Shown here: positions 3,510 to 18,701 of the stretch, piece after piece
Layout of the letters: each line of letters starts with the position of its first letter
Position numbering within the stretch: position 1 is the first letter of the stretch
Source: a virus
Virus record (IMG/VR): IMGVR_UViG_3300034375_000345
Location: 1-38,103 of that record
Strand: one strand, 5' to 3'
Length of the DNA stretch: 38,103 bases
The notes under the pieces: model-generated
The model's input: the letters and a program-made list of their open reading frames with translations, nothing else
Told to the model about the DNA's origin: nothing
Databases searched by the model: none
Program-made: the position numbers and the translations under genes

Positions 3510-3755
3510 TTATTCCCAATCTCTTTTTCTTCTAGGTTCAAACACGTCTGAAGCCTTAAGATGACCCTCTAAGTACATAGCTCTTTCAACTCTGTCTAGG
3601 GAATACTTAACGCCTGTGTCCTCTAATATTTTATTTCTGATATAGAACACATCTGATCTTGGGATGTGGACTCTACGGAGTCTGCCTTCATCCTCATCAG
3701 CTAGAGCTTTGTAAAATTCCTCTAGCACATTATCTGAAGAATACATTTTAGGCAA
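3510..3755 (-). CDS. Hypothetical acidic/basic helical protein, first gene of the left minus-strand row
   Basis: This is an 81-residue soluble, charged protein (EEFYKALADEDEGRLRRVHIP then VERAMYLEGHLKASDVF). Two starts are possible: TTG at 3755 with AAGGA well placed upstream, or ATG at 3746 with poorer spacing. The DVFYIRNKIL...VKYSLDRVERAMYLEGHL part could be a small helix-turn-helix-like bundle, but I cannot show DNA binding. It is the promoter-proximal gene behind the strong minus promoter at 3924-3951. Confidence 0.6.
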   Translation of the reverse strand: MPKMYSSDNVLEEFYKALADEDEGRLRRVHIPRSDVFYIRNKILEDTGVKYSLDRVERAMYLEGHLKASDVFEPRRKRDWE

Positions 3756-3831
3756 TTGATTGTCCTTAGTTATACTATTTTAAATTTGGAAGTCAATACT
3801 TTTTACCTACGACAGTAAAAAAATTACACCA

Positions 3832-3893
3832 TCCTTAAAGGATTTCCTTAAATATTAATTACTTACTATAATTATAATTAGTATTTAATATTT
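3832..3893. repeat. AT-rich inverted repeats in the minus-strand leader
   Basis: TCCTTAAAGGA (3832-3842) overlaps AAGGATTTCCTT (3838-3849). Next is a larger inverted repeat with 9-bp arms AAATATTAA (3850-3858) and TTAATATTT (3885-3893), helped by inner ACT/AGT pairs. All lie within about 85 bases downstream of the predicted transcription start of the minus promoter, so the leader RNA may be structured. Confidence 0.6.
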
Positions 3894-3923
3894 AAAGTAC
3901 TACTCTAAGTAATACTTTAAGTA

Positions 3924-3951
3924 ATTATACCGCACTCCAATTATTTGTCAA
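3924..3951 (-). promoter_or_regulatory. Near-consensus sigma-70 promoter for the leftward genes
   Basis: On the minus strand TTGACA (3951-3946) and TATAAT (3929-3924) are separated by 16 bp, both hexamers perfect. Transcription would start near 3917, leaving a leader of about 160 nt before the first gene at 3755. This is the strongest promoter-like sequence I see in the window and suggests host RNA polymerase drives this row. Confidence 0.75.
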
Positions 3952-4014
3952 CACTAAAAGTAAGAAATAATATTTAAATTAATTTAATTTTTCTTTACCA
4001 CCATTAAATTTCTA

Positions 4015-4047
4015 TATAAGTCCAGTTACCATAAAGTATAAGTCCAG
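4015..4047. repeat. Direct repeat TATAAGTCCAG x2
   Basis: Identical 11-mers lie at 4015-4025 and 4037-4047. The start-to-start spacing of 22 bp is about two helical turns, so a bound protein would sit on the same DNA face. Iteron or operator use is possible but unproven. Confidence 0.55.
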
Positions 4048-4163
4048 ATGTTCACAAATTGTTACAAACATTGCAACATACCTTACGTAATCCCCCAAGT
4101 ATTCTACAATAACCTTTGCCTTTCGTAGCAATATTAGGCTTAACCCCTTGTTTTTACTAGGGA

Positions 4164-4268
4164 ATACTATATATGGGCTGGTATTATTGTGGTTTCCAAC
4201 TGAAAATACCCCCCTCTGTCATTATGGGTATATAGTATCAGCGTACCCCCCTATGGCCCATGCCCCCC
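4164..4268. repeat. Inverted repeat ATACTATATA with three C6 runs
   Basis: ATACTATATA at 4164-4173 is mirrored by TATATAGTAT at 4229-4238. Runs of exactly six C lie at 4209-4214, 4246-4251 and 4263-4268, and a run of five at 4092-4096. The minus strand therefore carries closely spaced G-runs that could form a G-quadruplex. No function is shown by the sequence alone. Confidence 0.5.
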
Positions 4269-4558
4269 GTAGCCTAGATGGGGCTTGATCACGCCTATAA
4301 ATCCGTAGGATTCAGCAAGAATCAATGACAAGTCATTGAAATGTATTGTTTTTACAAACAATAAGGGATTCCCTTTATCAGATTACAAGGTAATCTCTTG
4401 GGAATTACAGGGCTTTGGTCTTTAGACCAAGATCATGGTCAAACCATAATATGGTTCAATCATCTGGGATCATGCTTGGGATCGGGATCACCTGCATAGC
4501 TTTTCCTTGCGCATAATGCTCACCAAAAGATCAAAAAGTTTCCCCTAAAGGGGAAGTT

Positions 4559-4580
4559 AATCACGGAAATTCCGAGAATA
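4559..4580 (+). repeat. Dispersed palindromic element, copy 1
   Basis: The sequence is AATCACGGAAATTCCGAGAATA with perfect core CGGAAATTCCG at 4564-4574. It lies in the 5' leader of the 4688 gene, about 110 bases before the start codon. It has the same orientation as all other copies. Confidence 0.9.
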
Positions 4581-4598
4581 GCCAACCCCCTAAAGGGG

Positions 4599-4628
4599 TT
4601 GACAATGGGATCGAATTAGGGTTACTTT
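4599..4628 (+). promoter_or_regulatory. Candidate weak promoter for the rightward early genes
   Basis: A perfect -35 hexamer TTGACA lies at 4599-4604, but the -10 region 17-18 bases downstream (TTACTT or TACTTT) is poor. The -35 overlaps the 3' arm of the 4583-4601 hairpin. It is about 60 bases upstream of the 4688 start codon. It would need an activator or be a chance match. Confidence 0.3.
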
Positions 4629-4670
4629 GTAAGGGCTTCATCGGCAAATCGATGAGGCAACAACCTTAAC

Positions 4671-4685
4671 TTAATCGGAGATTAA
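4671..4685 (+). promoter_or_regulatory. Shine-Dalgarno presented in a hairpin loop (gene at 4688)
   Basis: TTAAT-CGGAG-ATTAA: a 5-bp stem exposes the GGAG ribosome site in a 5-nt loop, two bases before the ATG at 4688. The arrangement repeats before the gene at 5377. Confidence 0.6.
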
Positions 4686-4687
4686 CG

Positions 4688-5302
4688 ATGACAAAATCAG
4701 CTACTTTACCTACGGTAACATTGAACAGCACTTTCAAATTAGGTCGTAAGACCTATACTTTGACTGATGGAATCAGTCATGCGGTAGCTTGTTATGACAA
4801 GCTTTATCTGATCCAAGAGGATCAGTTAGCTCTCTTTAGAGAGCTTGGAAACATCCTGCTTCAGATTGAAAATCTGTTCGGTGGTGACAAGAAAGCCTAC
4901 GGCTCCTTTATCAGTGGAACTGATATGTCGAATGAGAACATCAGCTCTGCTGATAAGTATGATGCCAAGTGGATTGCCACTCATTGGACTAAAGTCCAAC
5001 AGTTAAATAAAGCTGGTAAGCTTTCGGCTCTCGGCGTATCTTCGATACGGAAGATTGTTCTGGAAGCTCATCCTGAGCTTCGTAAGAAGCCTAAAGCTTC
5101 TTCAGCCGGTAACACTTCAAAGGGCAAGCCGAAGGCTTCTGAACAGCCTAATAAGGCTGAGGAAGTGATCAAGAACACTGTCTTTGAGACAGTGATTGCC
5201 AAGAACGAAAAAGAACTTGCAGAGCAAGTATTTGATGCTCTTCAAGCCGGAGGCTTTAAGAGATCTGAGTTCGCAAAAGAGCTTGCAAAGCTCTTTAAGT
5301 AA
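4688..5302 (+). CDS. First rightward gene: 204-residue early protein of unknown function
   Basis: Residues about 1-30 are beta-like (VTLNSTFKLGRKTYTLTDG). Residues 30-130 are helical and include FRELGNILLQIENLF and KWIATHWTKVQQLNKAGKL, which loosely recall the DUF3102 pattern, though I would not assign it. Residues 130-155 form a Lys/Ala/Ser/Pro linker. A C-terminal helix pair follows (EKELAEQVFDALQAGGFKRS). No membrane segment or catalytic motif is seen. It starts with a Shine-Dalgarno in a hairpin loop and ends at a UUCG-loop terminator. Its coding sequence contains 17 perfect hairpins with stems of at least 6 bp, so codon choice seems bound to nucleic acid structure. It could be a regulator or a host-takeover protein. 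Confidence 0.8.
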   Translation: MTKSATLPTVTLNSTFKLGRKTYTLTDGISHAVACYDKLYLIQEDQLALFRELGNILLQIENLFGGDKKAYGSFISGTDMSNENISSADKYDAKWIATHWTKVQQLNKAGKLSALGVSSIRKIVLEAHPELRKKPKASSAGNTSKGKPKASEQPNKAEEVIKNTVFETVIAKNEKELAEQVFDALQAGGFKRSEFAKELAKLFK

Positions 5303-5308
5303 ATCATT

Positions 5309-5330
5309 TAGCCCCCTTCGGGGGGCTATT
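5309..5330 (+). terminator. UUCG-loop hairpin terminator
   Basis: TAGCCCCC-TTCG-GGGGGCTA (5309-5328) is an 8-bp stem with a stable UUCG tetraloop starting six bases after the 4688 gene's stop. The downstream tract is TTTAAT, a short U-run, so termination may be partial. Confidence 0.75.
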
Positions 5331-5353
5331 TAATCTCGGAAATTCCGAGAATA
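5331..5353 (+). repeat. Dispersed palindromic element, copy 2
   Basis: TAATCTCGGAAATTCCGAGAATA. In this copy the usual A-A mismatch is replaced by a T-A pair, giving a perfect 15-base palindrome CTCGGAAATTCCGAG (5335-5349). It lies between the terminator and the 57-residue gene. Confidence 0.9.
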
Positions 5354-5355
5354 AC

Positions 5356-5374
5356 TTTAAATCGGAGATTTAAA
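5356..5374 (+). promoter_or_regulatory. Shine-Dalgarno presented in a hairpin loop (gene at 5377)
   Basis: TTTAAAT-CGGAG-ATTTAAA: a perfect 7-bp stem with the GGAG ribosome site in a 5-nt loop, two bases before the ATG at 5377. It uses the same CGGAGATT block as the 4671-4685 hairpin. Confidence 0.65.
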
Positions 5375-5376
5375 AT

Positions 5377-5550
5377 ATGAAATATCGTGGTGTCAGAGTA
5401 ATCAAAATCGACAGTGAAACCTACGGTTTCATTTATGATGGTTGTCCTGACAAGCTTTTAGATAATCACTATGGTGAATATCTAAGAATCGACAACATAG
5501 ATAAAGCCAAAGGCTTTATAGATTGTTTGATTCAGCTTGCTCAAATTTAA
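5377..5550 (+). CDS. 57-residue early protein
   Basis: The short ORF starts MKYRGVRVIKIDSETYGFIY and ends FIDCLIQLAQI. It looks like a small alpha/beta fold. It is bounded by a strong ribosome site in a hairpin loop and by a strong intrinsic terminator, so it is a self-contained expression unit. Three hairpins with 7- to 8-bp stems lie inside it (5415-5431, 5458-5485, 5501-5519). No family is recognised. Confidence 0.7.
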   Translation: MKYRGVRVIKIDSETYGFIYDGCPDKLLDNHYGEYLRIDNIDKAKGFIDCLIQLAQI

Positions 5551-5553
5551 AAG

Positions 5554-5580
5554 AAGCTCCCTTCGGGGAGCTTTTTTTTT
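5554..5580 (+). terminator. Strong intrinsic terminator
   Basis: AAGCTCCC-TTCG-GGGAGCTT (5554-5573) has an 8-bp stem and UUCG loop and is followed by a run of T. It starts four bases after the stop of the 57-residue gene. It is one of the clearest terminators in the window. Confidence 0.92.
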
Positions 5581-5605
5581 GCTTATACTTCTTTGAAGTA
5601 TAGTG

Positions 5606-5630
5606 GTATTCACGGAAATTCCGAGAATAC
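5606..5630 (+). repeat. Dispersed palindromic element, copy 3 (longest palindrome)
   Basis: The arms extend to GTATTC...GAATAC around the core (5613-5623). This gives a 25-base inverted repeat broken only by one symmetrical A-A mismatch. It lies between the terminator and the 51-residue membrane-protein gene. A separate 8-bp hairpin (5584-5602) precedes it. Confidence 0.9.
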
Positions 5631-5663
5631 TTTTGTAAGCATGCGGCAGAAGGAGATCACGTC

Positions 5664-5819
5664 ATGCAATTAGTAATATTCTTTGCTTGGTTATTAATAC
5701 TTGTATCTACTACAAGTATATTATTAATAGTAGCTTATACTACTATTAATCCTATAATATTATTATCATTACTACCTGTAGTAATATTACTTTCTGTTTT
5801 AGCTTTTGATCGGGGGTGA
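5664..5819 (+). CDS. 51-residue membrane peptide with two hydrophobic helices
   Basis: MQLVIFFAWLLILVSTTSIL is followed by a second hydrophobic stretch (INPIILLSLLPVVILLSVLA) and the end FDRG. It is almost entirely membrane-embedded. AAGGAG lies well placed upstream of the ATG. The gene contains three strong hairpins (9-, 11- and 8-bp stems), partly achieved through TTA, ATA and GTA codon choice. Small early phage membrane peptides can modify host envelope or block superinfection; that role is speculation here. Confidence 0.65.
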   Translation: MQLVIFFAWLLILVSTTSILLIVAYTTINPIILLSLLPVVILLSVLAFDRG

Positions 5820-5821
5820 TC

Positions 5822-5971
5822 ATGCGGGTATGTTTTTATGATGATGAAGGGTTTATGTTTTCTTATCTTACTTGTCGTGACATGCGGCAAGTATCGAAGA
5901 TACTGAAACGTTTCCCTAGTAATGCAAAACTAATCACGGAAAATCCGAGAATAAAAAGGAGAATTAAATGA
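5822..5971 (+). CDS. 49-residue peptide whose C-terminus is encoded by the repeated element
   Basis: MRVCFYDDEGFMFSYLTCRD is followed by a basic helix (MRQVSKILKRFPSNAK). The last residues, LITENPRIKRRIK, are translated from element copy 4 and the next ribosome site. It starts two bases after the previous stop and overlaps the next gene by ATGA. The small size lowers certainty, but spacing on both sides fits a real gene. Confidence 0.55.
   Translation: MRVCFYDDEGFMFSYLTCRDMRQVSKILKRFPSNAKLITENPRIKRRIK
5931..5953 (+). repeat. Dispersed palindromic element, copy 4 (variant)
   Basis: The core is CGGAAAATCCG (5937-5947), one substitution from the consensus. It lies inside the 3' end of the 49-residue ORF and is followed by AAAAAGGAG, the ribosome site of the next gene. 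Confidence 0.85.
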
Positions 5972-6204
5972 GTAACGTACCTTTAGATTTAGGTAATGGG
6001 TATACCTTATCCATTGTTGCCGATGCTGTTGGCCTAGTAGAGGTAGCACTAATACATGATGATCATGGGTTTATTAATACAAGTCTATGGTTTTATGATG
6101 TGACTGAGGCATCAGATTTTTATGATGATGTAGTAAGACACATGAATTCTGATCAATTAATAATTGCTTTGGTAAAAGCAAAAGCATATGCAAAAGGAGA
6201 ATGA
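5968..6204 (+). CDS. Hypothetical early protein, 78 residues
   Basis: This acidic, probably alpha/beta protein (MSNVPLDLGNGYTLSIVADA, then HDDHGFINTSLWFYDVTEASDFYDD) has no membrane segment. Its ATG overlaps the upstream stop and follows AAAAAGGAG. The gene ends one base before the next ATG (at 6206) and shares its AAGGAG with it. No family is recognised. Confidence 0.7.
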   Translation: MSNVPLDLGNGYTLSIVADAVGLVEVALIHDDHGFINTSLWFYDVTEASDFYDDVVRHMNSDQLIIALVKAKAYAKGE

Positions 6205-6205
6205 C

Positions 6206-6445
6206 ATGCGGATAGAACACATTGCAGAGAACAAAGTATTTGTTCACAAGAAGTCTATGCTTTCAGGTAAGGTAAACTCTATGGTTTTACCTACGACTCA
6301 AGGTAAGATAGAATACTGGCTACAATCAGGTGAACTGATTCAGAATGTAATGCCTGACTTAAATGCCGAGCAACGTGAGTTTATTAAGACAGGTATCAGC
6401 CCTGAAGAATGGAATGACATGTGTGGAGATAAGGATGAGGAGTAA
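6206..6445 (+). CDS. Hypothetical early protein, 79 residues
   Basis: I chose the ATG at 6206 (MRIEHIAENKVF) because AAGGAG lies at the correct distance; an upstream in-frame ATG at 6188 lacks one. The sequence is soluble with a C-terminal helical part (NAEQREFIKTGISPEEWNDM) and an acidic end. A 7-bp hairpin (6229-6245) lies near its start. Function is unknown. Confidence 0.7.
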   Translation: MRIEHIAENKVFVHKKSMLSGKVNSMVLPTTQGKIEYWLQSGELIQNVMPDLNAEQREFIKTGISPEEWNDMCGDKDEE

Positions 6446-6638
6446 ACGTAACAGACAATCACTACGTGCCGACAAATATTGGCGGTCTATATGGCATCGA
6501 CAAATGCTATTCAAAACAAAAGCCTTGACATCTGTTTCATCATGTGACAGAACTAAGGAAATTCATGGCAACAAGGAGTTAAGCCAATGTCCAGATCATA
6601 CCTCGTCTATCAATTCAGACCAGAAGTCTATGACATAA
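6435..6638 (+). CDS. Possible small basic protein overlapping both neighbours
   Basis: The ATG at 6435 has GGAG six bases upstream and overlaps the end of the previous gene. The product (67 residues, MRSKRNRQSLRADKYWRSIW) is basic at the N-terminus and Ser-rich at the end. It overlaps the next, well-supported gene by 52 bases, which is unusual here, so it may be only partly real. Without it, about 140 bases would be empty. Confidence 0.4.
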   Translation: MRSKRNRQSLRADKYWRSIWHRQMLFKTKALTSVSSCDRTKEIHGNKELSQCPDHTSSINSDQKSMT

Positions 6639-6985
6639 TCAATGAGAACCCTCAGTCAGAGATAGCAAGAATTGCTTTTGATCTGAGGCTTCTCAATGAG
6701 AAGTCTGCAGAGCAGAGTGTCAATGATGCTTTGTTTCATAACATGTATTACCCAACCAAGTTCCTGCATCTAGGTGTACTATCTGAATCTGTTGACCCAT
6801 TGGAAGCTGTCTTTGATGCAGGGAATGGCTATGGTAAAGCTAAGGTTACTACCCTTGCTAAGGGTGACACTAGCCTATCTGTAGGTAATATAATTGTACA
6901 CTTGCAGCAGAACAAGGCGTATCTATGTATGCCTACTGGATGGCATGAGCTATCACGAGAACTGGTACTAGGCATCAAATTGTAA
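6587..6985 (+). CDS. Hypothetical phage protein, 132 residues
   Basis: AAGGAG is well placed before the ATG. The protein has an N-terminal helical half (PQSEIARIAFDLRLLNEKSA) and a beta-rich C-terminal half with a Gly-rich segment (DAGNGYGKAKVTTLAKGDTS, then VGNIIV). Similar VFDAGNGYG...SVGNII patterns occur in other phage early proteins, without function. Its TAA is the first three bases of element copy 5. Confidence 0.75.
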   Translation: MSRSYLVYQFRPEVYDIINENPQSEIARIAFDLRLLNEKSAEQSVNDALFHNMYYPTKFLHLGVLSESVDPLEAVFDAGNGYGKAKVTTLAKGDTSLSVGNIIVHLQQNKAYLCMPTGWHELSRELVLGIKL

Positions 6986-7005
6986 TCACGGAAATTCCGA
7001 GAATG
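6983..7005 (+). repeat. Dispersed palindromic element, copy 5
   Basis: TAATCACGGAAATTCCGAGAATG. The core is at 6989-6999. The first three bases are the stop codon of the upstream gene, and the following GGAG is the ribosome site of the next gene. The element exactly fills the gene junction. Confidence 0.9.
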
Positions 7006-7014
7006 GAGAATCAA

Positions 7015-7407
7015 ATGAAGACCGAGATATATTATAACCTACACAAGCATGTCTTTTCTGTAAGGAAAAGAAACGGTAAGGTTCAATGGCATACTAATAG
7101 TATCATAGCACACAAGCCTGTCTTTGCAGTGCAACCTGCAGGGTGGGCAAAGACTCAGGATGAACAGGTTAAGAATGTACACGCATTCGTTAGACCTCAA
7201 GAGGTTGAGGTGGATGCTGACCTATGGTTTCAAGACCCTGACTATGCCTTGCCCTATGATGTAGCTAGGCTTGAACGTGTACGGTATAACCCATATCATG
7301 CAAACACATTTGTAGATGAGCACGATGAACCGATCTACCATGCCGAGGTTGCTTATTTGTATATTGACAAACAAAATAAACCTGTCATAAAGGTATTCAG
7401 AACTTAA
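7015..7407 (+). CDS. Hypothetical early protein, 130 residues
   Basis: I chose the ATG at 7015 (MKTEIYYNLHKHVFSVRKR) because GGAG (7005-7008) is six bases upstream. An in-frame ATG at 7003 lies inside element copy 5 without a ribosome site. The protein is beta-rich, with His- and Val-rich strands (HKPVFAVQPAGWAKTQ; VAYLYIDKQNKPVIKVF). Sequences of this style (FSVR..GKV..H...I......FAVQPAG...V..EK+VHAF.RG) are common in phage genomes with no known function. Confidence 0.75.
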   Translation: MKTEIYYNLHKHVFSVRKRNGKVQWHTNSIIAHKPVFAVQPAGWAKTQDEQVKNVHAFVRPQEVEVDADLWFQDPDYALPYDVARLERVRYNPYHANTFVDEHDEPIYHAEVAYLYIDKQNKPVIKVFRT

Positions 7408-7417
7408 ACGAAAATCT

Positions 7418-7439
7418 AATCACGGAGATTCCGAGAATG
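7418..7439 (+). repeat. Dispersed palindromic element, copy 6, acting as ribosome site and start
   Basis: The core is CGGAGATTCCG (7423-7433). The A-to-G change creates GGAG (7424-7427). The element's final AATG supplies the ATG at 7437 of the gp88-like gene, nine bases downstream. Confidence 0.88.
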
Positions 7440-8135
7440 ACTTTATCCACACAAGAACTTAATGATCTATTTAGAGAATGCAAAGACATAGGCATGGCTG
7501 CAACAGACAGACCGATAAATGATACCGAGAACCATACTGGCTCTTGTGACCACCGTACAGATTACTGTGATGACACTTGTTATAACGTTAAGTTATACAA
7601 GATGTACCCAAACATGGCTAAACGTGATGACAGGTGCGAGACTATCTGGCAAAAACTAAACAAGTCTAACTCTGACTTCACTAAATTCTTTAGTCGTAAA
7701 CGGTACGATACTAGTCGTGTTCGTCACATGACACGAGGCGAAGCCTTCAAAGATGTGATTGATGTGTACCGTGTCAAGACTATGTGCCTACTTAATCCAG
7801 ATACTACATGGTGGATTCCCACCAGAGCATGGCGTAATCCACGCCTCAAAGCTCTAATTGAGAAAGAGCTTATGCCTCTACCTAACTGTGCTATTAATGC
7901 ATCTCTTGACCCATCCAACAGCAAAGCTGAATGGAAGATGTTGATTGATGATGACTGGAATATTATGTTCTATGGTGATGATGACTTGACATCTGATCCT
8001 GTCTATGGAACAAGAATGTTCCTATGCCCTAAGACTCACAAGGATCTCAAGGGTCACTGCAAGGACTGCAAGGCAGGTTGCTTTGCACAAAAGACTATCA
8101 ACCGCACACAGATTGTGCATCTATCAGAGCATTAA
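7437..8135 (+). CDS. Cysteine-rich gp88-family protein (DUF7227-like)
   Basis: The 232-residue protein matches a phage family I know as gp88-like. An N-terminal Cys cluster lies at C37, C44, C48 and C67 (SCDHRTDYCDDTCYNVK). The centre reads TWWIPTRAWRNP and then LPNCAINASLDPSN. A C-terminal Cys cluster lies at C197, C208, C211 and C215 (GHCKDCKAGC). The paired clusters suggest metal or Fe-S binding. No catalytic role is established for the family. It is followed at 12 bases by a DUF932 gene. The family call is motif-based. Confidence 0.7.
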   Translation: MTLSTQELNDLFRECKDIGMAATDRPINDTENHTGSCDHRTDYCDDTCYNVKLYKMYPNMAKRDDRCETIWQKLNKSNSDFTKFFSRKRYDTSRVRHMTRGEAFKDVIDVYRVKTMCLLNPDTTWWIPTRAWRNPRLKALIEKELMPLPNCAINASLDPSNSKAEWKMLIDDDWNIMFYGDDDLTSDPVYGTRMFLCPKTHKDLKGHCKDCKAGCFAQKTINRTQIVHLSEH

Positions 8136-8146
8136 GGAGAAACAAA

Positions 8147-8986
8147 ATGCCATTTGATACAACAACATCATTCGTACCAGAGCACTTGGACTTCGAAGTA
8201 GAGTTCGAGGAAACTAAATTCAAAGACAAGAAGTATGTAATCAATACTAATACAGGTGAATACCTTGGTATTGTGGGCAAGGACTTTACCTGTGCCAATC
8301 ATGGTGACTTCTTTCGTAATGTCGTAGACACTGCCACTCAAGAGTTACAAGAGGGTGACTTACATGATGCAGACTTTAACTTCAGAACTGCCCGTGGTGG
8401 TGCTTGGGCTATGCTCGACATCACATTACCTAGCATGAAATCAGTTATAGAAACTGATCGACATCAGACTGAGGTAAAGAACCGTATCATATCATTACAT
8501 GGTATTGATGGGTCATGTAGTAACCAAGTATTCTTTGGTGCTATTGATAGCTTCTGCACTAATGGGTGCATCAGTGGTGAGCATGACAAGGTTCGGAGAA
8601 AGAACACCTCTAACTTCTCACTTAGCTCATTTATAAATGAACTGTCTAACCTACGGTCAGACTTCTATGAGCAAGCTATCAAGATGAAAACATGGGCACA
8701 GACTAGCCTAAAAAATGTAGATGTAGAGGCTTTGCTAGAAGCAATGATACCATCAGAACGTAAGGCAAAGAAGATGTATCAACTATACCGTACAGAGACA
8801 TGCATGAGAGGTGAAAACAAGTGGGCCTTGTACTCTGCCTTTACTAATTATGCTACTTATGCAGATGATCGTAATGGATTTAATCTACGTAAGACAGGTA
8901 ATGACACACAAGCTACCTCAATGTGGGGTAGAGAACAGGAGGTATCTAAGTGGGTCAGTGACAATCGTTTTTTATTAGCAGCTTAA
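8147..8986 (+). CDS. DUF932 family phage/plasmid protein
   Basis: The start is ATG at 8147 (MPFDTTTSFVPEHLDF) after AAGGAG; a longer in-frame ORF begins inside the previous gene. The 279-residue protein shows DUF932 features: a TGEYLGIVGKDFTCANHGDF block, an acidic helical part, then RGGAWAMLDITLPS and HGIDGSCSNQVFFGAIDSFC with conserved Cys. The C-terminus includes TETCMRGENKWALYSAFTNY. The family is widespread in phages and plasmids with unproven function, often beside DNA-metabolism genes. Its TAA is the first three bases of element copy 7. Confidence 0.82.
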   Translation: MPFDTTTSFVPEHLDFEVEFEETKFKDKKYVINTNTGEYLGIVGKDFTCANHGDFFRNVVDTATQELQEGDLHDADFNFRTARGGAWAMLDITLPSMKSVIETDRHQTEVKNRIISLHGIDGSCSNQVFFGAIDSFCTNGCISGEHDKVRRKNTSNFSLSSFINELSNLRSDFYEQAIKMKTWAQTSLKNVDVEALLEAMIPSERKAKKMYQLYRTETCMRGENKWALYSAFTNYATYADDRNGFNLRKTGNDTQATSMWGREQEVSKWVSDNRFLLAA

Positions 8987-9005
8987 TCACGGAAATTCCG
9001 AGAAT
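8984..9005 (+). repeat. Dispersed palindromic element, copy 7 (last)
   Basis: TAATCACGGAAATTCCGAGAAT. The core is at 8990-9000. It begins with the DUF932 gene's stop codon and is followed by AAAGGA, the ribosome site of the 9020 gene. I found no further perfect copy to the right. Confidence 0.9.
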
Positions 9006-9019
9006 GGAAAGGAACTACA

Positions 9020-9286
9020 ATGACTCCAGAAGAAATCGCAAAGAACCACCAAGAGTGGGCAGACAAACGGGAACAACATAGAATAGAGCTTGAAGAAAAG
9101 TGTAACAACCTGATGGACGAACAGGTTAAGGCAATCAAGTCTGCCTATGCTGCACTGCAAGAAGCAGATGGCAATCTTAGAGAAATGTTTGACATTACCA
9201 TAGAAGATGCTAGAGCTATATCTACTGCAGAAACTAAAATGAGGATGGCATTTCCTCATATCTGCATTCACCCTTACTGGTCTTAA
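9020..9286 (+). CDS. Helical hypothetical protein, 88 residues
   Basis: The sequence is nearly all alpha-helical with heptad-like spacing (residues 1-60: EEIAKNHQEWADKREQHRIE, EEKCNNLMDEQVKAIKSAYA), suggesting a coiled coil, and ends HICIHPYWS. It is the last gene preceded by the dispersed palindrome. Function is unknown. Confidence 0.7.
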   Translation: MTPEEIAKNHQEWADKREQHRIELEEKCNNLMDEQVKAIKSAYAALQEADGNLREMFDITIEDARAISTAETKMRMAFPHICIHPYWS

Positions 9287-9311
9287 TGATACAAACACAA
9301 AGGAGCTAAAC

Positions 9312-9530
9312 ATGTTTGTACTAGTAGCAACTAAACCACTCAATGACGGAACAAAAGGGTTTCGTTTCAACCTGTTAGGTAAGAAAGGACTATACCGTAA
9401 GCGTAGCCGTAGCTCTCGTGGTTGGTTAAAGTATGAACCACTTAGTACTATGAATGCCTATCACTTTGGTAAACGTAGTTTGTACATTCAACATGCTTAT
9501 GGACGTAAGCTGCATCACTTTGCAGGATAG
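9312..9530 (+). CDS. Basic hypothetical protein, 72 residues
   Basis: MFVLVATKPLNDGTKGFRFN is followed by an Arg/Lys/Ser/His-rich remainder (KRSRSSRGWLKY, RKLHHFAG), so the product is strongly basic and could bind nucleic acid. A Shine-Dalgarno (AAAGGAG) precedes the ATG. It ends three bases before the next gene. No family is recognised. Confidence 0.65.
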   Translation: MFVLVATKPLNDGTKGFRFNLLGKKGLYRKRSRSSRGWLKYEPLSTMNAYHFGKRSLYIQHAYGRKLHHFAG

Positions 9531-9533
9531 TAT

Positions 9534-9794
9534 ATGGATTATTATGTAGTAGAAATGTATGTCGATGAGTTGGAAGAGTGCCTCGTAATGAGGTGCTCGA
9601 CCATCGAAAGTGCTAGTCTTATCTGTGAAAAACTAGAAGAGGCATTTCCCAATGCTGTCTTTGACATCATGGACACAGAGCCTGTGATAAAAATGCGAGA
9701 CTACAATTTAGAAAGGTACGAAGAGTTGCGAAATGTTTTGACATCTAAACCAAGAAACCCACAACTAATTGTGATAGAAGGGGGTAAGCGTTAG
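9534..9794 (+). CDS. Hypothetical protein, 86 residues
   Basis: This is an acidic alpha/beta protein (MDYYVVEMYVDELEECLVMR; IESASLICEKLEEAFPNAVF; then a basic end). The beta-alpha-beta order resembles the 66-residue protein that follows, which also opens with a YYV strand, so the two may be distant duplicates. There is little ribosome site. Its ATG lies three bases after the previous stop, suggesting coupling. Confidence 0.65.
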   Translation: MDYYVVEMYVDELEECLVMRCSTIESASLICEKLEEAFPNAVFDIMDTEPVIKMRDYNLERYEELRNVLTSKPRNPQLIVIEGGKR

Positions 9795-9798
9795 TGTT

Positions 9799-9999
9799 AT
9801 GTATTACGTAGAAATTATCCATAAGGATGAAAAGGTTGCATCTACCTATCAAGATCTACTTTCGGATAGTGTAGACGTTGCTAACAGCCTGTCTTTTGCA
9901 GACTGTACTGTAACTATATACGAATGTATTAAAAGCTTATGCGATGTGGAAAAGATTGCAGAGGTTATGTCATGGAAAGATGACGGTTACAGACTATAA
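9799..9999 (+). CDS. Hypothetical protein, 66 residues
   Basis: MYYVEIIHKDEKVASTYQDL opens a small alpha/beta protein with three Cys residues. It is the last gene before a hairpin that separates this row from the integrase gene. No family is recognised. Confidence 0.65.
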   Translation: MYYVEIIHKDEKVASTYQDLLSDSVDVANSLSFADCTVTIYECIKSLCDVEKIAEVMSWKDDGYRL

Positions 10000-10003
10000 A
10001 CTG

Positions 10004-10034
10004 TAGTAGGGTATTGCTATGTAGTACCCTACTA
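10004..10034 (+). terminator. Long-stem hairpin ahead of the integrase, possible terminator
   Basis: Perfect 10-bp arms TAGTAGGGTA (10004-10013) and TACCCTACTA (10025-10034) flank an 11-nt loop. A T-rich stretch follows about 12 bases later rather than immediately, so it may be a weak terminator, an RNA processing site or an operator. Confidence 0.5.
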
Positions 10035-10079
10035 TGCTACTCTTACTTTTTAGTATTATTATAAGGATCATATATTACT

Positions 10080-11177
10080 ATGTATAAATATACAAAGAAA
10101 GGAAACTTAAAGGCTGGTACTGTATGGAGATTCACACCACCACAAGATGCTATTGATGCTGGTGTTGTACGAAGACAAACATTTAAAGATGGACGTGCAG
10201 CAAGGTATGAAATACCAAGGCTAGTAGAAAAGGTAGAGGCATTTAAACGTGGGGATATTGTCGCAGGAAATATTGGAGCCAACTCTACAATACTACACAT
10301 CTATAAATACTATGTTACAACTACACATTTTAAACAGTTGGCATATAGCTCACAGAAAACCTATGATAACACAATGAATGCTATAGCTAACACAAGTGTT
10401 GGTAGTAGGAAGTTAGGTCAGATTAAGATTAAAGATCTTACTGCAATGCACTGCACTGAAGCCTATGAGGAATGGTGTGAAGATGTGAGTGTGTCAAAAG
10501 GAAATCAGTGTGCAAGAATCTTTTCATTATTAATAAATTTTTGTATCTCTATTGATTTAATTAAGTATAACCCCATGTCTAAAGTTCGTAAAAGAAAACA
10601 TGAAACAAGGGATACAACATGGACAAAAGAACAAGTAGAAAAATTTCTTGATGTGGCATTCACTGACTTTGATTGGCGTAACGTGGGATTAATTGTACTA
10701 ATGTGCTATGAATGGGCACAAAGACCTACTGATATAAGATTATTAAAGTGGTCTTCAATTAATTTTAAAGAAAAGAAAGTAAAAATAAAACAAACTAAAC
10801 GTGGTGCAACAGTTGAGCTACCAATATCTGATGAGATTATGAACATGCTCACACAACAGAAGAAAGACTGGGACTTTCAAGAGTATGTAGTACCACATCA
10901 GAGGCCATCAGACGGTGCTTACAGGCCGCTAAACGTAGGTCAGGTATCGTGGTTAGCAAATCAAATAAAAGAAGCTGCAGACTTACCATCTAATTTACTT
11001 GTCGGAGATTTAAGAAAGAGTGCTATCGTAGAAATGATTGACTCAGAGGTAGATCATCTAGCTATAATGTCCGTGACAGGGCATCAGAATATCTCGTCAC
11101 TCAATCCATACCATAAGCATACTTATGCTGCAGCTAAGTCAGCATTAGATAGGAGAAAGGGTAATGAAAAAACCTAA
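10080..11177 (+). CDS. int: Tyrosine recombinase (phage integrase)
   Basis: The 365-residue protein would catalyse site-specific insertion of phage DNA. An SAM-like core-binding domain lies at about residues 70-170 (TILHIYKYYVTTTHFKQLAY). The catalytic domain lies at 178-355. Visible active-site residues are R215 (WAQRPTDIRLLKW), K240 (KQTKRG), R312 (GDLRKS), H335 (TGH) and nucleophile candidate Y344 (NPYHKH). The first His of the usual HxLR box is replaced by G309. It sits inside the replication-gene row, not at an edge, after a hairpin. No tRNA-like attachment site is evident nearby. Confidence 0.9.
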   Translation: MYKYTKKGNLKAGTVWRFTPPQDAIDAGVVRRQTFKDGRAARYEIPRLVEKVEAFKRGDIVAGNIGANSTILHIYKYYVTTTHFKQLAYSSQKTYDNTMNAIANTSVGSRKLGQIKIKDLTAMHCTEAYEEWCEDVSVSKGNQCARIFSLLINFCISIDLIKYNPMSKVRKRKHETRDTTWTKEQVEKFLDVAFTDFDWRNVGLIVLMCYEWAQRPTDIRLLKWSSINFKEKKVKIKQTKRGATVELPISDEIMNMLTQQKKDWDFQEYVVPHQRPSDGAYRPLNVGQVSWLANQIKEAADLPSNLLVGDLRKSAIVEMIDSEVDHLAIMSVTGHQNISSLNPYHKHTYAAAKSALDRRKGNEKT

Positions 11178-11289
11178 CCCAATGGCTAAAGATCTTAGAC
11201 AACCTAAGTATAAGCAACAGGTAATACCTGATAAGAAAAAACCTGTGCCTAAACGAAAAGAAAAACATAAAGGAAAAAATAATGGGTGA
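11164..11289 (+). CDS. 41-residue basic peptide following the integrase
   Basis: MKKPNPMAKDLRQPKYKQQV opens an extremely Lys/Pro-rich peptide. It overlaps the end of the integrase gene, has AGGAG upstream, and overlaps the next start. Small proteins with the MAKDLR.PKY(K/R)Q(R/Q)V pattern recur in marine phages; I recall no function. Nucleic acid binding is plausible from charge. Confidence 0.68.
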   Translation: MKKPNPMAKDLRQPKYKQQVIPDKKKPVPKRKEKHKGKNNG

Positions 11290-11368
11290 GGCATTGACAG
11301 CACTTTGTATCTTATTATTTTTAATCTGTGGTATTGTGTGGATAATAATAAGTGAGGTAAATAAATGA
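11282..11368 (+). CDS. 28-residue single-helix membrane peptide
   Basis: MGEALTALCILLFLICGIVW plus IIISEVNK: one hydrophobic helix with an acidic N-terminus. AAAGGA precedes it. It overlaps its upstream neighbour by eight bases and its downstream neighbour by ATGA, which supports translation despite its size. Confidence 0.55.
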   Translation: MGEALTALCILLFLICGIVWIIISEVNK

Positions 11369-11583
11369 AAGAACATAATCCAGAAACTGTAATAAGGACA
11401 TTAAAATATTTACTTGATGGTAGTAACGATGTTCTTAGTAGTAATGCCGTATCATCAACACATGGTTGTTTATATTATGATGTTCACAATAGTTTAATAG
11501 ATGCTGTAAATTTATTAGGTGGTGATACAAGTAATTATGAATACATTGATTCTGAGAATCCTGATATAGAAGGTAGAAATTAA
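11365..11583 (+). CDS. Hypothetical protein, 72 residues
   Basis: The protein is helical at the N-terminus (PETVIRTLKYLLDGSNDVLS) with acidic C-terminal residues. It abuts the thymidylate synthase start directly (TAAATG) and overlaps the tiny membrane peptide upstream. No family is recognised. Confidence 0.65.
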   Translation: MKEHNPETVIRTLKYLLDGSNDVLSSNAVSSTHGCLYYDVHNSLIDAVNLLGGDTSNYEYIDSENPDIEGRN

Positions 11584-12291
11584 ATGTTACAAACATTTTA
11601 CATAGATCACATGGGTACTGACTTGACAGTAGCTAATGCTGCACGAGTAAGTTTTGGTAAACGTAGTGAGATGGATACGAGTGATGTGTGGGGTCCACCT
11701 AAGTTGAAAGACAAGGACGCAAAGCTTATACGTTACCTTGCCAAGCACAAACACATCAGCCCATTTGGGCATTGCTTTGCCAGCTTCCATGTCAAGGCAC
11801 CTGTGTTTGTGGCACGTCAGCTAGTCAAGCATAAGTTCCTACGTTGGAATGAAATCAGCCGTAGGTATGTTGACCATGAGCCTGAGTTTTATCAGCCTAC
11901 AGAGTGGCGTGGACGTGCCAAAGATAAGAAGCAAGGATCTAGTGATGAAGTAATTACAGAACTAGAGGATGCTAGGTGGGAAGAATATGATCAGTTTGAA
12001 GTTGATAGGTACGACATACATAAAAGTATAACAGGTTGCTACGAGCAACACTTAAAGTTTTATGACTTATTAATACGCAATGATGTATGCCCAGAGCAAG
12101 CACGTATGGTACTGCCACAGAGCATGGTCACTGAGTGGTACTGGTCAGGTAGCTTAGATGCATTTGCAGACATGTGTAACCTGCGTTGCAAGCCTGACAC
12201 ACAGTACGAGACACAGGTTATAGCTGGACATATTGACACAGAAATGTTTAAGCTGTTTCCTGTATCATGGATGGCATTGAGGGAGAATTGA
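11584..12291 (+). CDS. thyX: Flavin-dependent thymidylate synthase ThyX
   Basis: The 235-residue enzyme makes dTMP from dUMP using FAD, NADPH and methylenetetrahydrofolate, feeding phage DNA synthesis. The ThyX motif region is [20 protein letters not shown]. The family signature RHR-x7-S is matched in spacing but reads K82-H83-K84...S92. The C-terminal part ([20 protein letters not shown], then [18 protein letters not shown]) matches the family's conserved second half. Length is normal. It lies just ahead of the replication genes, with RNR and MazG downstream completing a nucleotide-pool set. Confidence 0.92.
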
Positions 12292-12515
12292 TGGATAAAC
12301 TATACAACTTAGAACCAATGATAATGGACTGTTGGCAGGTCTGTAATGATCTTGAGACAGTATTTAAACAGATAGGTGATGGTGAACGTGAGCCTACGCA
12401 TGACGAGATGATGAACGCACTGATGGGTATGCAGCAGGTGTACCAGTGGAAGTTTGAGCAGTTATTCTTTAAGTATGAGCAAGCAATGGAAAGGGTCAAA
12501 GATAATGAGAGGTAA
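12291..12515 (+). CDS. Hypothetical helical acidic protein, 74 residues
   Basis: Start ATG at 12291 overlaps the thyX stop (TGATG) and has GGAG five bases upstream; the longer in-frame ORF lies inside thyX. The product is all-helical, Met-rich and acidic ([40 protein letters not shown]). Function is unknown. Confidence 0.7.
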
Positions 12516-12654
12516 TATCAATGGTGCAATCAAGGCGTCTGCTATTGTAGCTTTACTGATAGCTGCGCCACCTGTACTTATAGCCATGATGTATGATGAT
12601 TATCCAAAGTATTGTAAGCTGTCGATATTGCTACCTTGTATAGGGATAGAATGA
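12505..12654 (+). CDS. 49-residue small membrane protein
   Basis: ATG at 12505 ([20 protein letters not shown]) gives a product with one hydrophobic helix (residues 8-27) and a short Cys-containing tail. It overlaps neighbours on both sides (11 bases and ATGA), the standard junction style here. The short length makes it tentative. Confidence 0.5.
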
Positions 12655-12893
12655 TGGGTAGATATGCAATTCAGATTGAGATAGAAAATGGTGAGTACAC
12701 TTTAGTACGAAAAGAAAACCCTTGGACTTATGATTCAGAAGTTCTTTTATTTGAAACAAGAGCAGAAGCGGAGGATGAATTAACAAGATGGAACACAGGT
12801 ATTGTTGTAGATTACAAACGATACATAAGGCCCATGACTAAGGAAGAACGTACTAGATCTACTCAAAGGAATAGAACGTTTGTTACTAAGTGA
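12651..12893 (+). CDS. Conserved phage hypothetical, 80 residues
   Basis: [20 protein letters not shown] then FETRAEAEDELTRWNTGIVV and YKRYIRPMTKEERTRS. The RWNTGIVVDY...IRPMT.EER pattern is familiar from several phage early genes, without function. It likely forms a small alpha/beta domain. The start overlaps the preceding stop; a second ATG three bases later is equally possible. Confidence 0.7.
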   Translation: MMGRYAIQIEIENGEYTLVRKENPWTYDSEVLLFETRAEAEDELTRWNTGIVVDYKRYIRPMTKEERTRSTQRNRTFVTK

Positions 12894-13020
12894 GTACATA
12901 CCGTACATAATTTCTTTATCCGTTGTCGTAGGTAGTCTTGCATTCATTCCTCTTTGGCTGCTATACTTCGGTTTCAGAATTATAAAAACCTTTATCAAAG
13001 GAAAAACAAATGTCAGATAA
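12880..13020 (+). CDS. Possible 46-residue membrane peptide with TTG start
   Basis: An open frame fills the gap before the primase-helicase gene. It would start at TTG with AAAGGA eight bases upstream and encodes two hydrophobic stretches (YIISLSVVVGSLAFIPLWLL) and a basic tail. It overlaps both neighbours slightly. There is no ATG start, so it is uncertain. Confidence 0.38.
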   Translation: MLLSEYIPYIISLSVVVGSLAFIPLWLLYFGFRIIKTFIKGKTNVR

Positions 13021-16437: not shown

Positions 16438-16444
16438 AAAGTTC

Positions 16445-16474
16445 TTGCATGTACTTTTCAACACATGCTACAAT
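16445..16474 (+). promoter_or_regulatory. Candidate promoter with dyad operator upstream of the SSB gene
   Basis: -35 TTGCAT (16445-16450) and -10 TACAAT (16469-16474) are 18 bp apart. GCATGT (16447-16452) and ACATGC (16463-16468) form a dyad over the -35 and spacer. It is about 30 bases ahead of the SSB-like gene, in one of the few gaps of this block, and probably drives the recombination and nucleotide genes. Confidence 0.55.
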
Positions 16475-16503
16475 TCAATTCTAGTCTTTAAAGGAGTTAG
16501 CAA

Positions 16504-17043
16504 ATGGCTAAAATAACAGTAACAGGTATTGCTCAGTGGGCAAAAGTATTTGAAGAAAACCGTGACCTTGATGGGTATCAGGGTCAGTGGCAAGACACTA
16601 ACGGACGTTGTACTATTGAGATGATTCTTGATGAAGACAACACCGCCCGTGTCAAAGCGTCTGGATGTATGTCATCAGGTAAGGATGATCCAGAAGGACG
16701 AGGACGTGCCTTTAAGTTTACACGTAAGTTTGAAACCCCCAACGATTGGGATGGTGGAGCACCTACAGTGTATAAACCAGATGGTTCAGAGTGGAGCTTT
16801 GAATCTGATGGACCAATTGGTAATGGTTCAGAGGTTCTAGTAGAGTTAGACATCTACAAGAACAAGCAGTATAGCACTGTAACTACACGACTTGAACGTG
16901 TTAAGGTTATGAAACATGTATCATATGATGGTGCAGGTGGTAGCTCTGGGCCTGATCCTTTTACTAAGGATGTAACATCAGGCAGTGTAGCTGCATCAGC
17001 AGCACCACAAGCTGAACTTGTGTCAGAAGAAATCCCGTTTTAA
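16504..17043 (+). CDS. Probable single-stranded DNA-binding protein
   Basis: The 179-residue protein is beta-rich with an OB-like composition (residues 5-130) and many Lys, Arg and aromatic residues. A Gly/Ser/Ala linker follows, then the acidic C-terminal tail ELVSEEIPF, typical of SSB and T7 gp2.5 interaction tails. Position between polymerase and exonuclease matches gp2.5-type genes. It follows a strong ribosome site (AAAGGAG) and a candidate promoter. The call rests on tail and context, since sequence identity to gp2.5 is not obvious by eye. Confidence 0.75.
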   Translation: MAKITVTGIAQWAKVFEENRDLDGYQGQWQDTNGRCTIEMILDEDNTARVKASGCMSSGKDDPEGRGRAFKFTRKFETPNDWDGGAPTVYKPDGSEWSFESDGPIGNGSEVLVELDIYKNKQYSTVTTRLERVKVMKHVSYDGAGGSSGPDPFTKDVTSGSVAASAAPQAELVSEEIPF

Positions 17044-17053
17044 GGAGTAGCTT

Positions 17054-18499: not shown

Positions 18500-18513
18500 T
18501 AGGAGTTTCCACC

Positions 18514-18678: not shown

Positions 18679-18701
18679 ACTAACATTAGAAGGTGATAAG
18701 G

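Follow-up and report, generated by a model that had tools for sequence, protein, structure and literature searches.

The stretch of viral DNA analyzed here, called the window, spans 38,103 nucleotides (IMG/VR record IMGVR_UViG_3300034375_000345) and encodes proteins related to those of the dsDNA phages HMO-2011 and the CRP phages. On the minus strand of its divergent early region, a leftward sigma-70-like promoter (TTGACA-16 nt-TATAAT, 3924–3951) matches the consensus at 12 of 12 positions, and this leftward side carries no hairpin tract. All rightward features lie on the plus strand, beginning with a putative early promoter (TTGTTT-16 nt-TATATG, 4148–4175) that was recognized by eye in an alignment block conserved among relatives, is absent from the matches of our consensus scan, and would place the start site at ~4.18 kb. 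A putative 5′-terminal hairpin (GGTATT...AATACC, 4180–4210), seen in both alignment and fold, follows; in a relative, L012, other bases form the pairing (GGTGGTA...TACCACC). The non-coding leader (4300–4687) is tiled with hairpins and includes a further promoter-like sequence, found by eye and not among the scan matches (TTGACA-N17-TTACTT, 4599–4627); the hairpins at 4322–4456 would be transcribed only if the putative upstream promoter is real. A hairpin displaying the Shine-Dalgarno GGA(G) in its loop (TTAATC-GGA-GATTAA, 4671–4685) ends 2 nt before the start codon of the first rightward gene (4688–5302, 204 aa). On the 3′ side of this gene are a GC-rich, terminator-like hairpin with a TTCG loop (5309–5328), a hairpin (TTTAAATC-GGA-GATTTAAA, 5356–5374) whose loop is the Shine-Dalgarno of a 57-aa ORF (5377–5550), and a second terminator-like hairpin with a TTCG loop and a T run (5549–5578), which is present in 8/8 aligned sequences and is the putative end of the first transcript. 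The fading part of the tract (5584–5914) includes a 51-aa ORF (5664–5819). A sigma-70 scan of the region gave 18 matches, not above chance (16.4), while terminator-like sites numbered 16 vs. 3.6 expected. Rfam returned no match above the gathering score in 3700–6300 on either strand; the hairpin tract matches no known family, and we found no description of such a tract in the literature searched.

To quantify the hairpins, we counted perfect stems of at least 6 bp with loops of 3–6 nt. The whole tract (4300–5914) contains 37, vs. 1.91 ± 1.25 in dinucleotide shuffles (maximum 5, n = 300). The first gene alone holds 17, with stems of 6–9 bp, exactly the count given in the original prediction, vs. 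1.59 ± 1.18 in codon-preserving shuffles with the same loops (maximum 6, n = 200; z 13); with loops of 3–8 nt, synonymous-codon shuffles gave 1.81 ± 1.23 (maximum 7, n = 1,000). The leader (4182–4687) has 9 hairpins vs. 0.64 in shuffles, and the stretch 5303–5914 has 11 vs. 0.83. The pattern had been said to continue through the small genes, and each does exceed expectation (57-aa ORF, 2 vs. 0.48; 51-aa ORF, 3 vs. 1.03; ORF 5816–5971, 1 vs. 0.14), an excess that is suggestive and not strong when the ORFs are taken singly. The tract starts abruptly, since the AT-rich block directly 5′ of it (3756–4181) has 1 hairpin vs. 1.30 expected, and 500-bp bins from 4001 onward hold 5, 13, 12, 7, 4, and 2 hairpins, which bears out the fading originally placed at 5.9–6.25 kb. 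The densest 1 kb within the tract contains 26 hairpins and the densest in the remaining window 7 (near 14.2 kb), in agreement with the earlier remark that no comparable tract lies elsewhere. A mild general excess also exists in genes outside the tract (52 hairpins vs. 35.1 expected in 33 genes, that is, 37 hand-picked from the ORF table minus the 4 inside the tract); the strong excess is confined to ~4.2–5.9 kb of the 38 kb and is not genome-wide. The observation of a hairpin-tiled tract is thus confirmed and very strong.

Relatives carry the same tract at the start of their rightward early operon. It is clear in the cultured phages HMO-2011 and CRP-1, with only weak enrichment in the CRP-1 leader, and weak in CRP-345 (7 hairpins per kb, no denser than the best kb of N4). 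In 8/8 window-like and 16/22 CRP-like genomes, the first gene has more hairpins than any of its codon shuffles (24/30 together; the CRP-like set comprises 22 of 40 candidates after removal of near-duplicates and short pieces). The 6/22 CRP-like first genes that lie within the shuffle range count against the explanation we favor below, as do the weak cases of CRP-345 and the CRP-1 leader. In the window-like genomes (n = 8), density is 18 and 15.5 hairpins/kb in the last 500 bp 5′ of the first gene, 22–27.5 in the first kb from that gene on, then 9.5, 6, and 4.5, and 0.6–4.6 past 4 kb; the corresponding values for the CRP-like genomes (n = 22) are 8.2 and 6.7 before the first gene, then 8.5, 10.2, 9.3, and 6.2, and 0.4–3.1 past 4 kb. 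From −2.5 to −1 kb relative to the first gene, the two groups have 0–2.5 and 0.2–0.7 hairpins/kb, respectively. Density therefore rises steeply close to the first gene (within ~0.5 kb) and falls off over ~4 kb, with nothing similar on the leftward side; this one-sided gradient along the rightward operon is as expected of a transcript.

Among the best 80 of 222 DUF932 loci, 32 extend 4 kb or more upstream. In 32/32 of these, the densest 1 kb is located 3.4–6.7 kb upstream, and in 29/32 it holds at least 6 hairpins (some contigs recur from an earlier search, and some begin at the dense kb). Among the 80 best of at least 600 RNR loci (857 kb), which mostly end short of the early-operon start and serve as background only, the densest kb has 6 hairpins, and the maxima per kb are 3 in T7, 6 in lambda, 7 in N4 (first 50 kb), 6 in SIO1, and 6 in HTVC010P. 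Four related isolates examined are without the tract; a packaging role, one of the causes first suggested, is unlikely on this ground, and we rejected it.

The original prediction also proposed that the first rightward gene may encode a protein cognate to the hairpins. At a cut-off of E ≤ 0.01 for Pfam and PHROG, no family was assigned to this protein; no Pfam profile scored above its threshold, and PHROG gave nothing better than E 0.004. Its AlphaFold model (mean pLDDT 64) has no PDB fold match at E ≤ 0.001, and residues 134–175, modeled at low confidence and rich in Lys, are probably disordered. Two first-gene families co-occur with the tract, and the 4 isolates lacking it yielded no member of either. 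The CRP-type family includes HMO-2011 gp74 (E 4.7e-11); profile comparison did not show homology between this family and that of the window, and rescanning with the protein alignment recovered only contigs found before. Because the first gene itself lies inside the tract, such co-occurrence would be weak support for a cognate role.

We then compared stems among relatives. Silent third positions in close pairs are 8.2% diverged in stems vs. 18.7% elsewhere, a 2.3-fold difference. Among close relatives, 362/806 changed stem positions (45%) are restored by the partner, vs. a fraction of 0.034 expected (counted over ordered pairs of 7 related sequences, hence not independent; 8 were aligned, and L010, identical there to L009, was dropped), and in coding DNA 53/121 silent stem changes in close pairs are compensated with amino acids unchanged. 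Compensation combined with silent-site constraint on pairs, the signature of selected mRNA secondary structure, is therefore present. The constraint had been assigned to the nucleic acid, as it crosses gene boundaries, and this assignment is upheld by the synonymous shuffles, the slow divergence of silent sites in stems, and the compensation. The excess, its position and gradient, the purifying selection on stems, and the compensation are in our view demonstrated.

Individual hairpins turn over. In a homologue with ~70% identity at the protein level, the density is retained but the hairpins are largely different ones, and the hairpins of L012 have turned over; insertions have created hairpins between relatives (alignment columns 430–458, 1037–1053, and 1187–1202), and some loops differ by inversion (TTT/AAA, GTA/TAC). 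The Shine-Dalgarno of the first gene lies in a hairpin loop in 7/8 window-like genomes, on a stem that changes in pairs across relatives (TTAATC/GATTAA, TTAATTC/GAATTAA, GTAATC/GATTAC, CAAATC/GATTTG); in the CRP-like genes listed, it is not in such a loop (judged by eye), which we count against our preferred explanation. The constraint is on hairpin density more than on particular hairpins, at the nucleic-acid level. A binding array for one sequence-specific protein, also among the causes first listed, is unlikely and was rejected, since stems and loops vary between hairpins and turn over between relatives.

To characterize the folding, we computed the energy excess per 120 nt, which is −9.4 kcal/mol for the tract (z −9.7), close to MS2 (−9.4) and Qbeta (−9.2), vs. 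−3.3 for E. coli 16S and −3.0 for window positions 8000–9700. The first gene likewise folds more stably than its synonymous shuffles (z −7.5, 60 codon shuffles). The minimum-energy fold of 4182–5582 has −0.345 kcal/mol per nt vs. −0.221 to −0.298 in other segments, and its paired fraction (0.651) is not higher than in 8 other segments (0.578–0.657); the distinctive feature of the tract is perfect, tight, stable hairpins, not paired fraction. The mean probability of an unpaired 8-mer is 0.042 vs. 0.059–0.105 in the 8 other segments. Accessible RNase-E-like sites are not clearly depleted (4.84 vs. 2.88–6.65 in the 8 other segments and 5.5–10.2 in 4 shuffles), and avoidance of RNase E sites was set aside as an explanation; this result and the unremarkable paired fraction count against the explanation we favor below. 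Of the causes first suggested, the best fit is an early transcript that folds as a hairpin chain, for which nuclease protection or a decoy function would be conceivable purposes.

Several comparisons say little about whether the folded molecule is RNA or DNA. The folding excess per 200 nt is nearly equal on the two strands (−11.4 and −10.9, mean of 22 tracts) and leans to the sense strand in E. coli 16S and 23S; strand symmetry neither excludes nor supports RNA, because MS2 and Qbeta show the same symmetry. Single stem mismatches in one count are G.T 12 vs. A.C 3 (44 vs. 32 in the rest of the genomes), whereas the CRP-like set is balanced (11 vs. 11); between close relatives, changes on one side of a stem show no G.U lean (88 vs. 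77), and neither do ssRNA phages (15 vs. 16). We dropped this discriminator. The preference of ssRNA phages for loops of 3–4 nt is shared by the few hairpins of the two ssDNA phages (n = 18), and loop size was therefore not counted as a sign of RNA. The 3-nt loops are closed pyrimidine-purine in 135 cases vs. 14, an arrangement only slightly favored by the RNA energy model, which counts against the explanation we prefer; comparison of DNA and RNA energy models for loop closing gave a weak, slight RNA lean, with DNA parameters seemingly lacking special-triloop terms. Loop composition, tallied over 444 unique hairpins from 32 phages, several of them close relatives, is asymmetric between strands (A 575 vs. 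T 392; GNA 50 vs. TNC 16; AA 46 vs. TT 24). An RNA-level constraint is favored by these A-rich sense-strand loops, the one-sidedness of the tract, its abrupt start near the putative promoter, the Shine-Dalgarno sequences in loops, and the MS2-like folding excess, and we infer that the folded molecule is RNA rather than DNA.

We propose, with a probability of roughly 45%, that the tract is the 5′ part of an immediate-early rightward transcript selected for many short, tight hairpins. This transcript would start at ~4.18 kb and end at the putative terminator (5549–5578), and its leader and coding parts would be selected to form as many hairpins as the proteins permit. The target of selection would be density and perfect pairing instead of a fixed structure, such that hairpins may be lost, gained, and re-made via paired changes while their total is maintained. 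That the phage benefits from the tract is a weaker supposition. As the earliest phage message, produced with the turnover enzymes and defences of the host still intact, the transcript might be kept free of the accessible unpaired stretches needed by endonucleases, Rho, R-loop formation, or RNA-targeting defences, and the fall in density with distance from the promoter would mirror expression order. Protection from such agents is the benefit we consider most likely. The full proposition, that a dsDNA phage armours its immediate-early mRNA with density-selected perfect mini-hairpins to escape an early host RNA-degrading or RNA-sensing system, is tentative and, as a whole, somewhat unlikely.

A role at the DNA level, which we judge unlikely, would have one strand of the region become single-stranded (at a replication origin, as the displaced strand of an R-loop, or in cruciforms), with the hairpins acting in DNA form, for instance to offer sites for priming or protein loading or to hold the region open. 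The strand-symmetric excess, the lack of a clear G.U preference between relatives, and the adjoining AT-rich divergent promoter region are consistent with such a role. GNA 3-nt loops are unusually stable in DNA, and their frequency (50/149 3-nt loops; 22/59 and 25/60 here vs. 2/16 in ssRNA phages) is therefore counted for DNA and against our preferred explanation. On the other hand, the tract is one-sided, along the rightward operon only, and it occurs with unlike replication proteins: neither the DNA polymerase nor the primase-helicase of the window is matched in HMO-2011 or CRP-1 (E ≤ 1e-4), although the window and both of these phages carry the tract, whereas CRP-13, which has the primase-helicase (66% aa) and exonuclease (56%) in common with the window and not the polymerase, is without it. 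Furthermore, the ssDNA phages phiX174 and M13 are hairpin-poor (1.5 unique perfect hairpins per kb), and the loops of the window-like group present Shine-Dalgarno sequences.

It is quite improbable that the tract is a functionless hot spot in which fold-back template switching perfects quasi-palindromes. The paired changes, the insertions that create whole hairpins, the loop inversions, and the turnover in L012 are compatible with this mechanism; however, a hot spot should change more, and the slow change of the stems leaves focused quasipalindrome mutagenesis, as first suggested, inadequate on its own. The compensated silent changes in coding DNA, which leave the amino acids intact, also argue against mutational bias, as does the presence of the tract alongside unlike polymerases (window vs. 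HMO-2011 and CRP-1), a contrast limited by the different polymerase of the tract-less CRP-13. We assign the same low likelihood to a transcript-level role besides stability, in which a nascent chain of hairpins would act on RNA polymerase or Rho or be bound by the first-gene protein. The promoter-proximal maximum with decay over distance, the long untranslated leader (4182–4687), and the Lys-rich, probably disordered stretch of the first-gene protein would suit this role, but the model of that protein matches no PDB fold at the threshold given above, the densest part of the tract is coding, and put RNA is a specific element, whereas tract sequences turn over freely. Chance, composition, or an annotation artefact, for which only the mild excess in other genes could speak, is already refuted by the shuffles in the window and in the 24/30 related first genes, and its likelihood is negligible.

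The tract is a very dense second layer of information over the coding sequence of a DNA virus, at a fixed place, and is maintained by selection even as its details change, which suggests that folding itself helps the phage early in infection. The marine phage group concerned is described in PMC9038755 as dominant and broadly distributed. If the folded molecule is RNA, a DNA-phage mRNA would have a folding excess like that of RNA-phage genomes, pointing to an unnamed early host pressure on phage RNA; if it also serves as armour, protection common to widespread marine phages would be written in nucleic acid and not in an anti-defence protein; and if the hairpins act as DNA, they would represent a type of origin or entry structure not known so far. 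The cultured carriers HMO-2011 and CRP-1, in which the tract is clear, and CRP-345, in which it is weak, make these ideas directly testable.

Hairpins in early phage transcripts have precedents. HK022 put and lambda nut/boxB are anti-termination elements with hairpins in the early transcript near the promoter, and put RNA, with two hairpins, acts against pausing and termination; these are few, specific hairpins of fixed sequence, whereas the tract has dozens of unlike ones. The N4 hairpin promoters are few and short, with 3-nt loops, lie in the early region, and are used by a giant virion RNA polymerase. The densest hairpin kb of N4 (7) is also near the early end, but the N4 vRNAP CDS is 10.5 kb, and the largest annotated CDS of the complete HMO-2011 genome is 3387 bp, so no protein of that size is annotated in HMO-2011. 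REP, MITE, and Rickettsia palindromic elements place hairpins in coding and intergenic DNA as copies of one sequence, whereas the loops and stems of the tract differ between hairpins, and among the 20 repeat families listed, of at least 60, only a 7-copy CGGAAATTCCG element has several copies in the tract. GORS, as cited in PMC11409064, resembles the tract as pervasive local structure in coding and noncoding RNA beyond shuffled controls, and the tract does exceed order-randomized controls in folding energy. GORS differs in being genome-wide and in belonging to positive-strand RNA virus genomes, whereas the tract occupies ~1.7 kb at one operon start of a genome with dsDNA phage proteins, with a gradient and perfect short stems. 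The ssRNA phages MS2, Qbeta, PP7, and AP205 share with the tract a strand-symmetric excess and a preference for C-G closing, and for MS2 and Qbeta the magnitude of the excess is similar. The spacer peak is 3 nt in the tract and 4 in these phages, GNA loops mark the tract, and its RNA would be a DNA-phage mRNA. Unique perfect hairpins are ~2.6 times as dense in the tract (14.1 per kb) as in the 4 ssRNA phages (5.4).

The whole window was scanned for perfect stems (6 or more Watson-Crick pairs, short loops), and the hairpin-tiled tract at 4300-5914 (+) holds 37 of them vs 1.91 expected (maximum 5 in 300 dinucleotide shuffles), with stems of 6-11 bp. The first gene within it (4688-5302, +), which encodes a 204-aa protein, had been credited with 17 stems; the recount returned the same number, and the excess withstood codon-preserving comparison (mean 1.81, maximum 7 in 1,000 synonymous-codon shuffles). 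The original prediction had also noticed no comparable tract elsewhere, which holds for the window: the densest 1 kb carries 26 hairpins within the tract and 7 in the remaining sequence. The onset is abrupt, since 3756-4181, directly upstream, has 1 hairpin vs 1.30 expected. The 33 other tested genes show a mild excess (52 hairpins vs 35.1 expected); the rest of the genome is therefore slightly hairpin-rich, a different class from the tract. A second, weaker cluster at 14200-15300 (7 in its best kb) falls mostly within the DNA polymerase gene at 14608-16437 (6 vs 2.43 expected, z 2.4).

Relatives of the 204-aa protein are encoded at 11 viral loci, and the tract is present in 11/11 as far as their sequence reaches. 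Using the nearby DUF932 gene, we fetched the best 80 of 222 loci, 32 of which extend 4 kb or more upstream; in these 32, some of whose contigs are shared with the 11-locus set and some of which start at the density peak, the densest 1 kb always lies 3.4-6.7 kb upstream of the DUF932 gene and contains 3-28 hairpins (at least 6 in 29/32). At the tract position, the cultured phages HMO-2011, CRP-1, and CRP-345 have 14, 12, and 7 hairpins per kb, the last of which does not exceed the N4 maximum (7). Maxima in the comparison phages T7, lambda, N4, SIO1, and HTVC010P are 3-7 per kb, and those of 80 RNR loci, whose stretches mostly stop short of the operon start, reach 6. The densest kb of N4 (about 300-1300) likewise sits at its early end. 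In the stretches examined of CRP-13, CRP-738, CRP-212, and CRP-3 there is no tract (at most 4 hairpins per kb), and neither first-gene family was found in these phages.

Two families occupy the first slot of the early operon: a window type, which also includes proteins at the related loci L031 (E about 1e-49) and L040 (4e-50), and a CRP type, which includes HMO-2011 gp74 (E 4.7e-11); comparing the two did not show them to be related. The structure predicted for the window protein consists mostly of helices, with low confidence over 134-175, and has no PDB match at E ≤ 0.001. Aligned on the first-gene start, hairpin density sets in ~1 kb before, climbs steeply over the last 500 bp, peaks over the first kb (8 window-like genomes, 22-27.5 per kb; 22 CRP-like genomes, 6.2-10.2), and falls away over ~4 kb; between -2.5 and -1 kb the two groups have 0-2.5 and 0.2-0.7 per kb, respectively. 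Window-like first genes exceed all 200 codon shuffles in 8/8 cases (11-17 hairpins vs means of 0.8-1.5) and CRP-like ones in 16/22; the six that do not (L207, L213, L215, L216, L221, and L055) make the trait a graded one.

Selection acts on the base pairs. At third codon positions encoding the same amino acid, stem sites differ less than other sites, both among close relatives (8.2% vs 18.7%) and in distant pairs (29.0% vs 38.1%). The predicted compensatory changes are present: among close relatives a partner change restores pairing at 362/806 changed stem bases (45%) vs 3.4% for same-base stem positions, and in distant pairs at 972/3160 (31%) vs 11%. At 23 alignment start columns, a figure that in some cases includes the same hairpin counted one column apart, hairpins have undergone one or more double changes and remained perfect; 8 of these columns are in the leader (4182-4687). 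One hairpin reads AGATTAC-AAG-GTAATCT, AAAATAC-AA-GTATTTT, or AAATAT-CAAG-ATATTT in different relatives, and a stem in coding DNA reads CACTGTC-GACAGTG or TACAGTC-GACTGTA. The homologue at locus L012 (71% protein identity) matches the window in the number of hairpins for this gene (16-17), many of them at different places; together with the paired changes, this indicates that density and pairing are maintained, and particular hairpins much less so.

We infer that the folded molecule is RNA. The rightward early operon opens with the tract, which adjoins a divergent, AT-rich stretch containing a leftward promoter of perfect consensus. Several features count for RNA: the tract runs one-sidedly along this operon and begins close to a putative promoter, and the end of its densest part lies close to a terminator-like hairpin shared by 8/8 aligned sequences. 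So does the first-gene Shine-Dalgarno, which lies in a hairpin loop in 7/8 window-like genomes, with stem changes occurring in pairs; by eye, the CRP-like genes compared alongside do not have it in such a loop. Sense-strand loops are A-rich (A 575, T 392; GNA 50, TNC 16; AA 46, TT 24), per 120 nt the tract shows the same folding excess as MS2 and Qbeta, and the tracts carry 14.1 hairpins per kb vs 1.5 in two ssDNA phages, which likewise argues for RNA. Expressed relative to native energy, the folding excess amounts to about 29% for the tract and 23% for MS2; for natural phage genomes, one survey gives a median MFED of 0.0324 by its own method (PMC11409064). In pooled tracts from 32 phages, 3-nt loops have a 5'-pyrimidine/3'-purine closing pair in 135/149 unique hairpins, a bias poorly explained by either energy model used.

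The tract might instead serve a DNA-level role, for which the strand-symmetric folding excess and the lack of a clear G.U preference (mixed counts) would speak, although ssRNA phages share both features. GNA loops also favor this alternative, being stable in DNA and atypical of the ssRNA phages compared. A tie to one replication machinery fits poorly with the genomes. The phage of the window (a 38-kb virus record) has an HMO-2011-type early region and is a mosaic: its DUF932 protein shares 67% identity with the counterparts in Roseobacter phages CRP-1 and CRP-345 and 58% with the one in HMO-2011, and its DNA polymerase has no close match in the six compared genomes (best SIO1, 24%; CRP-13, 26% over 100 aa). 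The tract accompanies unlike polymerases and primases in the window vs HMO-2011 and CRP-1, and CRP-13 lacks it while sharing the window's primase-helicase (66%) and exonuclease (56%), though not its polymerase. Across 7003-20989, early proteins including DUF932 resemble those of CRP-1/HMO-2011, and the primase-helicase and exonuclease resemble those of CRP-13. A 92-nt direct repeat (711-907; 99% identical, 105 bp apart) lies inside the leftward ORF 505-1416.

Alternatively, a mutational hot spot could create hairpins by fold-back template switching; whole-hairpin insertions and inverted loops are seen between relatives. At two places in the alignment (columns 1539-1557 and 130-144), conserved hairpins have loops that are exact inversions of each other in different relatives (TTT/AAA, GTA/TAC), which is what such switching would leave. 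An action of the tract on RNA polymerase or Rho is a further alternative.

We favor the view that an immediate-early mRNA has been selected for maximal local hairpin formation. The data show the hairpin excess, its location, its gradient, and selection on the pairs. A weaker step than the identity of the molecule is that folding may protect this mRNA from host turnover or a defense targeting unpaired RNA: the chance of unpaired 8-mers is lower in the tract (0.042 vs 0.059-0.105 in 8 other segments), but accessible RNase-E-like sites in the tract are not clearly depleted, its paired fraction is ordinary, and the CRP-1 leader is only weakly enriched in hairpins, all of which count against protection.

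The early region also carries 7 copies of an intergenic hairpin element between or before early genes (4543-9005); its sequence is TCACGGAAATTCCGAGAAT or nearly so, and it may serve as an operator, a processing site, or another regulatory element. Its loop and flanking pairs differ among relatives, sometimes in a matched way, and HMO-2011 has a repeated hairpin of its own, AGTCCG-ACAG-CGGACT. The peptide SNVG recurs in different CRP-type early proteins (loci L064, L067, L068, L072, L111, and others), perhaps because a palindromic DNA element inserted in frame.

We found no description of such a tract in the literature searched, with subscription literature and preprints outside the search, and the words "hairpin" and "inverted" are absent from the main text of the HMO-2011-type genome paper (PMC9038755). 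GORS and ssRNA phage genomes resemble the tract in look but fail as its family. We know of no comparable DNA-phage element and therefore regard the tract as new in kind; if the folded molecule is indeed RNA, a more modest view would be that it is a further form of selected mRNA structure.
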